Below, piece by piece: positions 1-4,187 of a DNA stretch of 36,038 nucleotides. This DNA is from Candidatus Poseidonia sp. (GTDB lineage: Archaea > Thermoplasmatota > Poseidoniia > Poseidoniales > Poseidoniaceae). Made by a program: the position numbers and the translations under genes. The stretch's first letter is position 1, and every line of letters starts with the position of its first letter. The notes below the pieces were generated by a model. It was not told the DNA's origin, ran no database searches, and saw only the letters and a program-made list of their open reading frames with translations. The stretch lies in NCBI GenBank assembly GCA_030741355.1, contig JASLVM010000014.1:1-36038 (forward strand), written 5' to 3'.

Positions 1-468
1 GTACATTTCGTCAGCCACACGCTGTTCGGAGTTGATGGCGGTCTTGACGATGTAGAGGAAAGAACCGACGCTACCGTACATCTCTCGGAAGAGGCCGTGC
101 GCGTTTTCCATGTCAAGGTCGGAGAAAATGCAGTTGTAATCCTTGATGGTACCGGGGTCGACCCATTCGGCACGAGTGTAGATGCCGGAGGGGGTGACTT
201 CGTTGCTCTTGGCAACGACGAGAATGGGCATGACGTCAACGAGGTTGCGACCCATGTCGATACCGCGCTCGGGGCCGGTGGCGTGGTAGTGAAGGTCGTC
301 GACGGGGATACCGGTGGACTGGGCGACACGGTCGAGGACTTCCTCAGGGGTGTCAGCAACGCCCCAAACACCGTCCCAAAGGTCGGGGAAGTGCTCGGTA
401 GAACTGTTGCGCTTGAGCAACAGCAATTTCTCTTCAAAGCGAACAAAGGCCACAAATGCTTCCGTCAT
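1..468 (-). CDS. spt5: Partial (3' end beyond window): degenerate Nudix-like domain fused to the start of a Spt5/NusG NGN domain
   Basis: Open frame from ATG at 468 to the window edge, absent from the ORF track because no stop is reached. Hand translation MTEAFVAFVRFEEKLLLLKRNSSTEHFPDLWDGVWGVADTPEEVLDRVAQSTGI...AEWVDPGTIKDY...GSFLYIVKTAINSEQRVADEMY. N-terminal half is Nudix-like; the tail resembles the archaeal Spt5 N-terminus (IFAVxTxxGQExxxAxL). Lies 18 bp downstream of secE, the usual archaeal secE-spt5 order. Confidence 0.7.
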   Translation of the reverse strand, partial: MTEAFVAFVRFEEKLLLLKRNSSTEHFPDLWDGVWGVADTPEEVLDRVAQSTGIPVDDLHYHATGPERGIDMGRNLVDVMPILVVAKSNEVTPSGIYTRAEWVDPGTIKDYNCIFSDLDMENAHGLFREMYGSVGSFLYIVKTAINSEQRVADEMY

Positions 469-486
469 TATTCATCACGCTCCGAT

Positions 487-759
487 TCAGTTGCCGATGC
501 CAAAGACATCGTGAATCAACCAAGGCAGGAAGTTGTCCATGAGCACCAAAATGGCGAACCCAATGGCTCCCAACACAAAGAGACCGATGCCACAGATGAT
601 GGCCGTTTGACGGAACTCTTGCTTCGAAGGCTTTCGCGCCATGCGGATGATACGGGCCCAGGAGCCACGGGTAATCTTGCGGAACTGCGCCTCAATCTTA
701 TCCTGCTGCTCTTGAACCTTCATCTCGAAGGACTTGTTAGCGTTCGATTCGTCAGACAT
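487..759 (-). CDS. secE: Protein translocase subunit SecE / Sec61-gamma
   Basis: 90 aa; FRKITRGSWARIIRMARKPSKQEF followed by a single C-terminal TM helix, typical of SecE/Sec61g. Confidence 0.85.
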   Translation of the reverse strand: MSDESNANKSFEMKVQEQQDKIEAQFRKITRGSWARIIRMARKPSKQEFRQTAIICGIGLFVLGAIGFAILVLMDNFLPWLIHDVFGIGN

Positions 760-885: not shown

Positions 886-1791
886 ATGGCGGAACGAAAC
901 CCGTACGAGGTGTTGGGTGTCAGCCGACAGGCCAGCGACGGTGAAATCAAGCGAGCCTTCCGTAAATTGGCCCGTCAATACCACCCTGATCGCAACCAAG
1001 GCGACGCCGGTGCTGAAGCCAAATTCAAGGAAGTTCAAGCGGCCTACGATGCCATCGGCACCTCCGAGGCTCGCCGTGAATTTGACCAGCAGGAGCAGAT
1101 GCGCCACATGTTTGGTGGTGGCGGCCGAGGCCGTGGCGGCCCTTCGATGAATTTTGGCGGCATGGGCGGCGGAGGTCTTGACGATCTTCTCGGTCAGATG
1201 TTCGGTGGCGGCGGCATGGGCGGTATGCCTCGACAGCCTCCCCGCCAAAACCCGCGTCAACAACCCAAGGCAGCGACCATCAACGTGGGCCTTGACATCA
1301 CCATGGCACAGGCCGAAGAAGGCGGCGAATTCACCTTTTCTTACAAGCGATTCAAGCGGCAAGGAACGAGCATGGAGACCAAACGCACGACCCTCAAACT
1401 TCGGTTGGACGCCGGCGTGGTCCACGGCACGACCAAGACCCTCAAAGGCCAAGGCCACGATCATCCCGAAGGTGAGCGAGGCGACGTGGTCGTGACCGTG
1501 CGCATTGACGCCGGTGAAGCCTATCGGTGGGAAGGCGACCAGTTGGTGCAAGAGGTCCCGGTTCCGTACTCGGTGATGATGCTGGGTGGCAAGGTCGGCG
1601 TGCAACTCCTCTCTGGCAAAACGGGCAACCTCTCGGTGGACGCCATGACCCAAGTCGGTGACCGCCGACGAATGGCCAAGGCTGGCTACAACGGCGGCGA
1701 TTTGACCTTGGAATTCGTACTGGCTGAACCTGAAGAACTGTCGAAAGCCCAACGTAAAGCACTCGAGGACCTCGGTTCCACCGGATTGTGA
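886..1791 (+). CDS. J-domain co-chaperone (DnaJ/CbpA-like, no zinc-finger domain)
   Basis: NPYEVLGVSRQASDGEIKRAFRKLARQYHPDRNQGD with HPD motif, G/F-rich linker, C-terminal DnaJ beta domains; CxxCxGxG zinc repeats absent. ORF is open from 865; MAERNPYEV start at 886 preferred. Confidence 0.92.
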   Translation: MAERNPYEVLGVSRQASDGEIKRAFRKLARQYHPDRNQGDAGAEAKFKEVQAAYDAIGTSEARREFDQQEQMRHMFGGGGRGRGGPSMNFGGMGGGGLDDLLGQMFGGGGMGGMPRQPPRQNPRQQPKAATINVGLDITMAQAEEGGEFTFSYKRFKRQGTSMETKRTTLKLRLDAGVVHGTTKTLKGQGHDHPEGERGDVVVTVRIDAGEAYRWEGDQLVQEVPVPYSVMMLGGKVGVQLLSGKTGNLSVDAMTQVGDRRRMAKAGYNGGDLTLEFVLAEPEELSKAQRKALEDLGSTGL

Positions 1792-1829
1792 ATCGTTGAC
1801 TTCATGAAACCTCAACCAAACCCTTCGCC

Positions 1830-4187
1830 ATGGCGGGAGGGCGACACCGTGGACGCGGACGGAAAAACAACCGTCAACGGGGCGGCAAGAAGGGGCCGCA
1901 GTCTCCGCCCGACGAGCGCTTGTGGCGCCGAGTCACCCAACACTTTGACGACGACCAGTGGCAGCGAGCATGGACCGCTGAATCCATCACGGCATGGATC
2001 ACCGACAAGGAAGGCCTTGCTGTTCAATTCCAAAGCGATTCGAAAGCCGAACGCGCCCTGCTCAGCAAGGTGAACGAAGCGTTGGCCCACGGCCGAAACG
2101 AAGGCACCTACATCCTTGCAGGTGAGGAAAAAGCCGTCCGTTTTCGTAGCCCGGCCTCCATCGACGGCCTCATCTCGGCCACGAGCCGCTGGAAGGATTT
2201 CTTCAGCCGACACGGAGGAAAAGGCCAGACACCTTTGCACGGCCGGTCGCCGCTCACCACCGAAGACGCCAGCGAAGAAGACGTGGCCATGTACGCCCTG
2301 CTCGAAGACGTTTGGGAAGCCATGTTACGAGGCCAGCCGCTGCCGGAGGCCTATGCGCTTGACGACCAAGGTTGCACCGCCATGCAGGGCTTTGACCTGG
2401 TGAAGGAAGCCCGGAAATGTGCGGCACGACGTTCAGGTCTACGGTTCAGAGAAGATGAACCCGCCATGGCGCTGTTGATGATGATGGCCGGTCGCTGGAC
2501 CACCCGTGAATTGCTCGACGCACGGCTGGAAGCCCGCCGAAAAGACGGCCACAACCCCTTCCCACGCACCTACGACACCTCGCTGGTGGACCACGCTGAC
2601 CGGCTCGGCGAAGTGGACGGGGACGGTGAAGTCGCCGCAGGACGCACCGATTTACGCCATCTCCCGCTGGTGACCATCGACCCTCCCGACGCCAAGGATT
2701 TCGATGATGCGGTCTGTCTGGTCGAAGAAAACGGGAAGCGAACCCTCTGGGTGGCCATCGCCGATGTGGCTCATTACGTGCAGGCTGGCACGGCGCTCGA
2801 CCGTTCTGCAGCCGCACGTGCCACCTCGGTGTACCTACCTCACACGGTGCTCCCGATGCTCCCTCCCAAACTGGCCGACGACCTGTGTTCGCTGCGAGCC
2901 GGCGTTGACCGACTGGCCATGGTCGTTGGCATGGACCTTGACGACGAGAACAACGTCGTGAACACCCACGCTTACGAGGCCGTCATCCACGTCAAGGCCA
3001 ACATCGCCTACGGTGATGTGTTTGATACAGATGCTTACGACGAAATGCTGGCGCTCGCAGCCGTTTGGCAGAGCCGTGAAATCCGCTTGAACCTCAACAA
3101 TCCCGAACTTCGACCCCGTCTGCACGGTGAGGATGAACTGCGCGTGGAGGTGAAGTGGCCCAACGAAGCCACGCGGATGATCGAGTCCTTCATGGTCGCC
3201 ACCAACGCTGCGGTTGGCCACCTGCTGGGCGCAGCGGGCGCTCCACTCCCTTGGCGCTGCCACGCTCCGCCGGACCGTCCCGAAGTCGAAGGGTTGAACG
3301 CCAAGTTGGCGGCGTTGGACATCGGGATTCAACTGCCCATGCCCAGCCTGCGCAAACACGGGGAAAGCGAAACCGACGAGCTCTCGAACCTCCTCGGGGA
3401 CTGGGCGAGTCTGGGGGGCGGTGGAATCGACCTCTCGGGCATGGACGCTCCCGAAGAAACGGATGAAGCGGTGCTGCCCTACCTCAGTGGCGTGATTGAC
3501 CCCGAGGCCCGAAACGGTATCTTGGCCTCACTGCAAGACGCGCAGGCCGCCGCCAGCGACTTGACCGAAACGACCCGCCGCATTGTCGACCAGGGGCTGT
3601 TCCAACTCATGCAGCGCGCCCGGTACGACGAGGAAAACGGCGGACACTTTGGGTTGAATCTGGACGCTTACGTCCATTTCACCTCACCCATCCGTCGCTA
3701 CCCCGACCTGATGACACATCGCCAACTGAAGGCGCACATCCACGGTCGTGAATGGGTTCACGACACGGCTGAGACTGCGAAGTTGGCCGTCCATTGCAGC
3801 GAGCAAGGGCTGACTGCGAAGCGCATGGAATGGGAACTGGTCGCCAACGCCTACCATGTGCATCTGCTTCGTGGCGGTCGCCTTGGTGAGGAGGCGCCCT
3901 CGGAAGAAGGGGCAGCGACCACCTACAACGCTCGGGTAACAGGCCTGCGAGGGCCGTGGGTCTTCCTTGACTTGGCCGACGATGGGGCGGTTTCAGGACG
4001 TATGCACCTGCGTCAACTCGGTGGTAAACGCCGGCTGGTCGTGGACGAGTACGGTCTCGAAGCCAGTGTGGCCGAACCGGACCACAACGGAGAACATCCC
4101 ATCGTGCTGCGCCTTGGTCAGCGCTTCCCATGTCGCCTGCGAGGGCTCGATATCTGGTCGGGCAGCCTTGACCTCGCCCCAAATTAA
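1830..4187 (+). CDS. RNase II/RNase R family exoribonuclease (RNB domain)
   Basis: 785 aa with RNB signature TIDPPDAKDFDDAVCLVEENGKRTLWVAIADVAHYV...AAARATSVYLPHTVLPMLPPKLADDLCSL and FTSPIRRYPDLMTHRQL; Arg/Gly/Lys-rich N-terminus. Confidence 0.93.
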   Translation: MAGGRHRGRGRKNNRQRGGKKGPQSPPDERLWRRVTQHFDDDQWQRAWTAESITAWITDKEGLAVQFQSDSKAERALLSKVNEALAHGRNEGTYILAGEEKAVRFRSPASIDGLISATSRWKDFFSRHGGKGQTPLHGRSPLTTEDASEEDVAMYALLEDVWEAMLRGQPLPEAYALDDQGCTAMQGFDLVKEARKCAARRSGLRFREDEPAMALLMMMAGRWTTRELLDARLEARRKDGHNPFPRTYDTSLVDHADRLGEVDGDGEVAAGRTDLRHLPLVTIDPPDAKDFDDAVCLVEENGKRTLWVAIADVAHYVQAGTALDRSAAARATSVYLPHTVLPMLPPKLADDLCSLRAGVDRLAMVVGMDLDDENNVVNTHAYEAVIHVKANIAYGDVFDTDAYDEMLALAAVWQSREIRLNLNNPELRPRLHGEDELRVEVKWPNEATRMIESFMVATNAAVGHLLGAAGAPLPWRCHAPPDRPEVEGLNAKLAALDIGIQLPMPSLRKHGESETDELSNLLGDWASLGGGGIDLSGMDAPEETDEAVLPYLSGVIDPEARNGILASLQDAQAAASDLTETTRRIVDQGLFQLMQRARYDEENGGHFGLNLDAYVHFTSPIRRYPDLMTHRQLKAHIHGREWVHDTAETAKLAVHCSEQGLTAKRMEWELVANAYHVHLLRGGRLGEEAPSEEGAATTYNARVTGLRGPWVFLDLADDGAVSGRMHLRQLGGKRRLVVDEYGLEASVAEPDHNGEHPIVLRLGQRFPCRLRGLDIWSGSLDLAPN

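Follow-up and report, generated by a model that had tools for sequence, protein, structure and literature searches.

The window analyzed here, a stretch of 36,038 nucleotides from Candidatus Poseidonia, opens with a reading frame that raises two questions: does it encode the universal elongation factor Spt5 preceded by a degenerate Nudix domain, as an earlier note on this DNA proposed, and what might such a domain do there?

A truncated spt5 gene next to secE

The window starts at base 1 of its contig (C33, in a 127-contig assembly of 1.97 Mb), so that the spt5 reading frame is left open at the contig edge (table 1). The architecture of the whole protein, about 305 residues long, was therefore taken from relatives that are 98% identical: a Nudix-fold region from residue 1 to about 112, a linker with a helix, an NGN domain at 138–199 and a KOW domain at 252–279. 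The relatives of the window protein carry the names Poseidoniales or Poseidonia. The frame had been placed directly downstream of secE, and the match of the secE product to TIGR00327 bears this out; the two genes lie 18 bases apart. Locus L064 has secE, Spt5, L11, L1, L10 and P1 in this order. The end of the open frame had been read as the start of an NGN domain, to be followed by KOW and then by rpl11, and this is indeed what is seen, since full-length relatives run on as NGN and KOW and L11 comes next in L064. On the opposite strand, a DnaJ-like gene (865–1791, forward) and an RNase R-like gene (1830–4187, forward) adjoin the secE-spt5 pair, and L064 is arranged likewise.

Table 1. Features of the spt5 locus in the window and, in the last line, of a sister-order locus with an intact Nudix gene
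Feature	Coordinates	Strand	Evidence
Spt5 gene, 5' part, 156 of ~305 codons	1..468	-	Cut at base 1; full-length 98%-identical L002/L003; TIGR00405 above cut-off in L002
NGN domain start, residues 137-156	1..60	-	PF03439 at 138-199 in L002, E 7.6e-10
Helix, residues 123-134, joining the Nudix domain to NGN	67..102	-	AlphaFold helix 123-134; MAFFT alignment
Nudix-fold domain, residues 1-112	133..468	-	AlphaFold models, Foldseek Nudix matches, profile-profile match 99.2%, E 3e-19
Degenerate Nudix box, residues 36-54, GVADTPEEVLDRVAQSTGI	307..363	-	REVEEE of relatives changed to DRVAQS; loop short by 4 residues
Shine-Dalgarno-like GGAG before the Nudix start codon	480..483	-	Sequence
secE, protein translocase SEC61 gamma subunit, directly upstream of spt5	487..759	-	TIGR00327 E 5.8e-12, above cut-off
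Intact Nudix and isopentenyl phosphate kinase pair in L137	2..766 and 1866..1456	+ and -	Neighbourhood; also L158, L159, L160

Spt5 consists of NGN and one or more KOW domains, and is accompanied by Spt4 in archaea and eukaryotes (PMC3382729). PF03439 (Spt5-NGN) was found above its Pfam cut-off in all eight sequences searched, while KOW exceeded its cut-off of 22.3 bits in L002 and L024 and scored between 18.5 and 21.8 bits in the remainder of the eight. The archaeal Spt5 equivalog TIGR00405 of NCBIfam covers residues 139–302 of L002 at 95.4 bits (cut-off 69.95; E 3e-27), its scores ranging from 94.2 to 116.6 bits in L002, L023, L025 and L029. Spt4 is encoded away from the spt5 cluster and is present in 20 of 21 genomes, including that of the window. 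A search with the NGN family found no second NGN domain elsewhere in the window's genome, which is 88.7% complete; most genomes have one Spt5 match and a handful have two. Given the TIGR00405 match, the position in the secE-L11 cluster and the presence of Spt4, the sequence evidence indicates that the Nudix-NGN-KOW protein is the cell's own Spt5, not a stray paralog. Because NGN and KOW are intact, binding to the polymerase clamp and to Spt4 would be expected by analogy with established Spt5 biology.

Known archaeal Spt5 proteins, such as those of Pyrococcus (3p8b), M. jannaschii (4zn1/4zn3) and T. kodakarensis (9bct), likewise have NGN and a single KOW, with 30–34% identity in Foldseek alignments, and the archaeal Spt5 defined by TIGR00405 shares the Spt4 partner and the operon position. 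Their chains, however, comprise 138–147 residues of NGN and KOW, to which Poseidoniales add about 130 N-terminal residues of Nudix fold.

The fusion might be dismissed as an artefact of assembly or annotation, a chimeric contig or two adjacent genes merged, all the more as the window's gene is cut by the contig end. Yet the same fusion is present in 66 distinct reading frames spread over many independent assemblies, including a genome in a single contig, which refutes a contig chimera and leaves an artefact of any kind with a negligible chance. An internal start at Met130, which would produce a plain Spt5, was also rejected. Since a Shine-Dalgarno-like motif precedes Met1 in 60 of the 66 sequences and Met130 in none, the fusion appears to be the translated product.

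A Nudix fold that has lost its box

The N-terminal region remains below the Pfam cut-off of PF00293 (21.1 bits), with 13.6 bits in the window (E 0.068) and 18.4 bits in L064 (E 0.0023). In a profile-profile comparison, the fused domain matches intact thermoplasmatal Nudix proteins with a probability of 99.2% (E 3e-19, 109 columns), versus 73% for a generic Nudix group from these organisms. An AlphaFold model built from an alignment of 41 rows reached a mean pLDDT of 83, with ten-residue means of 80–97 for residues 1–110, and resolved the NGN domain, which an earlier model had left mostly below 50. PDB matches retrieved by Foldseek are Spt5/NusG and many Nudix proteins, the alpha/beta/alpha fold being recognizable, and the best target-normalized TM values among the Nudix matches rise to 0.78. 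Because the profile match to intact relatives and the predicted structure agree, we regard the assignment of the N-terminal domain to the Nudix fold as firm. The claim of a Nudix fold in residues 1–120 is thus upheld, even if it is sub-threshold by Pfam; neither a downstream sequence other than NGN and KOW nor a lack of Nudix similarity was encountered. Identity with type I IPP isomerase is ruled out, TIGR02150 giving 18.7 bits in L025 versus a cut-off of 105.8. In the model, the first NGN strand (137–143) comes almost straight after the linker helix, with which the C-terminal helix of stand-alone Nudix relatives (PWLPEMVAELL) aligns in MAFFT.

The Nudix box was then compared between the 66 distinct fused sequences and 15 intact relatives. 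The canonical pattern GX5EX7REUXEEXGU is not present in the fused domains and REUxEE is retained in 0 of 66. Position 47, the first Glu of REUxEE and a metal-binding residue, is occupied by Arg in 64 sequences and by Lys in two; Glu at position 51 is replaced by Ser or Ala in 63 of 66; at position 50, 44 sequences have Glu and 15 have Gln, as does the window. Compared with the nearest intact relatives, the box lacks four residues in 60 sequences and two in the other six, and the DWEH motif that is conserved in the intact relatives is absent. The degenerate box of the earlier note therefore stands with respect to glutamates 47 and 51, but the deletion is of two to four residues instead of one and residue 50 is still Glu in most sequences. 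From these sequence changes, Nudix hydrolysis has almost certainly been lost in the fused domain. An enzyme with a rebuilt active site, working for example on RNA 5' ends at the polymerase, would fit the structural match to the RNA pyrophosphohydrolase BdRppH (TM 0.74–0.78, normalized by target) and the persistence of acidic residues 42, 43 and often 50; nevertheless, we consider it very improbable in view of the disappearance of REUxEE from all 66 sequences, the basic residue at 47 throughout and the missing DWEH.

Distribution and conservation of the fusion

Searching 293 genomes of the class, we found an Spt5 match in all 38 genomes that are at least 90% complete. In both Poseidoniales families every intact copy among the matches listed spans the whole fusion (model positions 1–304), and the only Spt5 of the single-contig genome (G060) is the fusion. 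The sister order (family f3) has Spt5 in 14 of 15 re-searched genomes as NGN-KOW alone, the match running from residue 134–138 onward. Outside Poseidoniales, all matches listed among 245 genomes of the phylum start at residue 113 or later, although a rare fusion elsewhere is possible. The Nudix-Spt5 fusion is thus a fixed trait of the whole order Poseidoniales, not a one-off.

The Nudix domain is also under strong purifying selection, its median dN/dS being 0.068, compared with 0.018 for NGN and approximately 0 for KOW (184 pairs, which are not independent; Nei-Gojobori counting with Jukes-Cantor correction, median dS 0.4–0.9 depending on the domain). Among the 66 fused sequences, drawn from both families, 28 positions each keep a single residue in at least 97% of cases. 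Some of them, namely L16, R20, W31, G36 and W102, are shared with the intact relatives, whereas D32, V44, R68-G69, D78, Y97, D104 and G106 are among those specific to the clade. These data bear on the possibility that the domain is a structural relic, a frozen fusion that merely stabilizes NGN/Spt4 or gene expression, having neither partner nor ligand. The faster evolution of the Nudix part in comparison with NGN and KOW would be in line with this, but selection on it is still strong and several of the positions fixed in both families differ from those of intact relatives, making a relic quite improbable.

Possible origin from intact thermoplasmatal Nudix proteins

Two genera of the sister order possess a separate gene whose product resembles the Nudix part, with E values from 2e-9 to 3e-12 and an intact box (GFVEPGEEPLETSQREVEEETGI in L137). 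This stand-alone gene lies near that of isopentenyl phosphate kinase (IPK; NF040647 above cut-off), on the opposite strand. Clear Nudix relatives (E < 1e-18) occur in 12 of the 14 other Thermoplasmatota genomes searched, and several of the intact domains are fused behind the aconitase-X swivel domain PF01989 (L161, L163, L165, L167, L169 and L172), for which the two tested, L161 and L169, gave E values of 5e-31 and 2e-28. In ten Poseidoniales genomes no clear ortholog of the intact family was found, and the best matches (E 1e-7 to 3e-6) came from the domain within Spt5 or from Nudix proteins of the generic kind.

The intact family is the closest Nudix sub-family by profile and shares with the fused domain an Arg followed by W-x-G-[VI]-x-G and, later, W-[VI]-x-P. 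It differs in having an intact box and DWEH, in lacking a link to transcription and in not being joined to NGN/KOW. In the Nudix tree the fused domains form a single clade (100/100), and the generic Nudix group is separate from them (96/90). A long branch (2.7) leads to the fused clade, whose placement among the intact relatives is weakly supported (58/93). Descent from the intact family therefore relies on profile scores and shared motifs, and capture of the fused domain from the swivel- and IPK-linked thermoplasmatal Nudix family is our best reading of the sequences, not a proven one.

The small subunit of phosphomevalonate dehydratase is one of the archaeal swivel proteins of the AcnX type, and this enzyme and IPK both work in the archaeal mevalonate pathway. 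We take the swivel-Nudix fusions to be the likely small subunit of archaeal phosphomevalonate dehydratase. A connection of the intact Nudix family with isoprenoids is accordingly inferred from gene fusion and neighbourhood. The swivel-Nudix fusions themselves suggest a so far unassigned Nudix step in the archaeal mevalonate pathway; the literature searched holds no paper joining phosphomevalonate dehydratase, Nudix and archaea.

Possible functions of the fused domain

With catalysis gone, any action of the domain would have to be through binding. The regulatory or ligand-sensing appendage that the earlier note proposed is still a conjecture. CFIm25/NUDT21 is an example of a Nudix fold employed for binding rather than hydrolysis, and it acts in gene expression. 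What we consider the best explanation, at about an even chance of being right, is that the fixed, dead Nudix domain of Poseidoniales Spt5 serves the elongation complex as a docking module without catalytic activity. A thermoplasmatal Nudix hydrolase, intact by its sequence, would have been captured upstream of NGN in the ancestor of Poseidoniales. The NGN domain would still clamp RNA polymerase together with Spt4, and the short helix preceding it would keep the Nudix domain next to the clamp of the polymerase. There a partner, protein or RNA, could dock on the surface of the domain (for instance a ribosomal, termination or RNA-processing factor), and elongation would thereby be linked to another step. 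The clade-specific residues D32, R68-G69, D78, Y97, D104 and G106 might represent such a docking surface, or else a remodelled pocket.

A pocket is central to a possible though doubtful alternative, drawn by analogy, according to which the domain is a ligand sensor that binds a nucleotide, a compound resembling NAD or ADP-ribose, or an isoprenoid diphosphate, and thereby alters the activity or recruitment of Spt5, in the manner of the Nudix domain of NrtR. R20, W31 and W102 are invariant in the 66 fused and 15 intact sequences, purifying selection on the domain fits this too, and regulators with non-hydrolysing Nudix domains provide precedents: the ADP-ribose-activated human channel TRPM2 has a catalytically inactive NUDT9-H domain (PMC6461439) and NrtR is a regulator containing a Nudix domain (PMC6800001). 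The NrtR Nudix domain crystallized with ADP-ribose (3gz8) is among the Foldseek matches. Against a sensor speak the loss of the metal-binding Glu at 47 and 51, the deleted loop of the box and the Arg or Lys at 47. An unlikely extension of the sensor idea combines it with the proposed ancestry: a dead Nudix domain derived from an isoprenoid-related family would let Spt5 sense a nucleotide or prenyl diphosphate, tuning elongation or its coupling with translation genome-wide.

NrtR, TRPM2 NUDT9-H and CFIm25/NUDT21, compared here by fold alone, would have in common with the Spt5 domain the use of a Nudix fold for binding. NrtR and CFIm25 act in gene expression, but none of the three belongs to an elongation factor. 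The literature searched, which misses most subscription journals, contains no account of Nudix joined to Spt5. An extra Spt5 domain strongly conserved throughout a lineage of abundant surface-ocean archaea suggests that transcription in this clade is under a layer of control of its own.

Other N-terminal additions to Spt5

The docking role is favoured over sensing because, in other Thermoplasmatota, this spot is taken by unrelated domains. Spt5 reading frames of 270–390 codons occur in families f14, f20, f25, f30, f31, f32, f34 and others, and those that were read (L140-L143, L146-L148, L150, L151, L154 and L155) have about 100–130 residues before NGN which look beta-rich and unlike Nudix. None of these N-terminal domains gave a Pfam match above cut-off; that they might be beta-sandwiches is an idea suggested by their sequences. 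Judging from the same sequences, Spt5 seems to have gained a domain a second time, independently, at the position used in Poseidoniales. The notion that archaeal Spt5 normally begins with NGN consequently does not hold for much of the phylum, several families of which have a different N-terminal domain.

Because this domain is different and apparently unrelated to that of Poseidoniales, archaeal Spt5 seems to offer its N-terminus as a site at which lineages add modules. An added domain is known also in the NusG of Thermotoga maritima, namely DII (PMC7819879), a comparable gain even if the domain is different and the protein is a bacterial NusG. In the sister order, Spt5 (L123-L132) has a short acidic leader within the first 20–40 residues or so, ahead of NGN (for example MAKFIEEEEEVASEDG), which recalls eukaryotic Spt5 with its acidic N-terminus.
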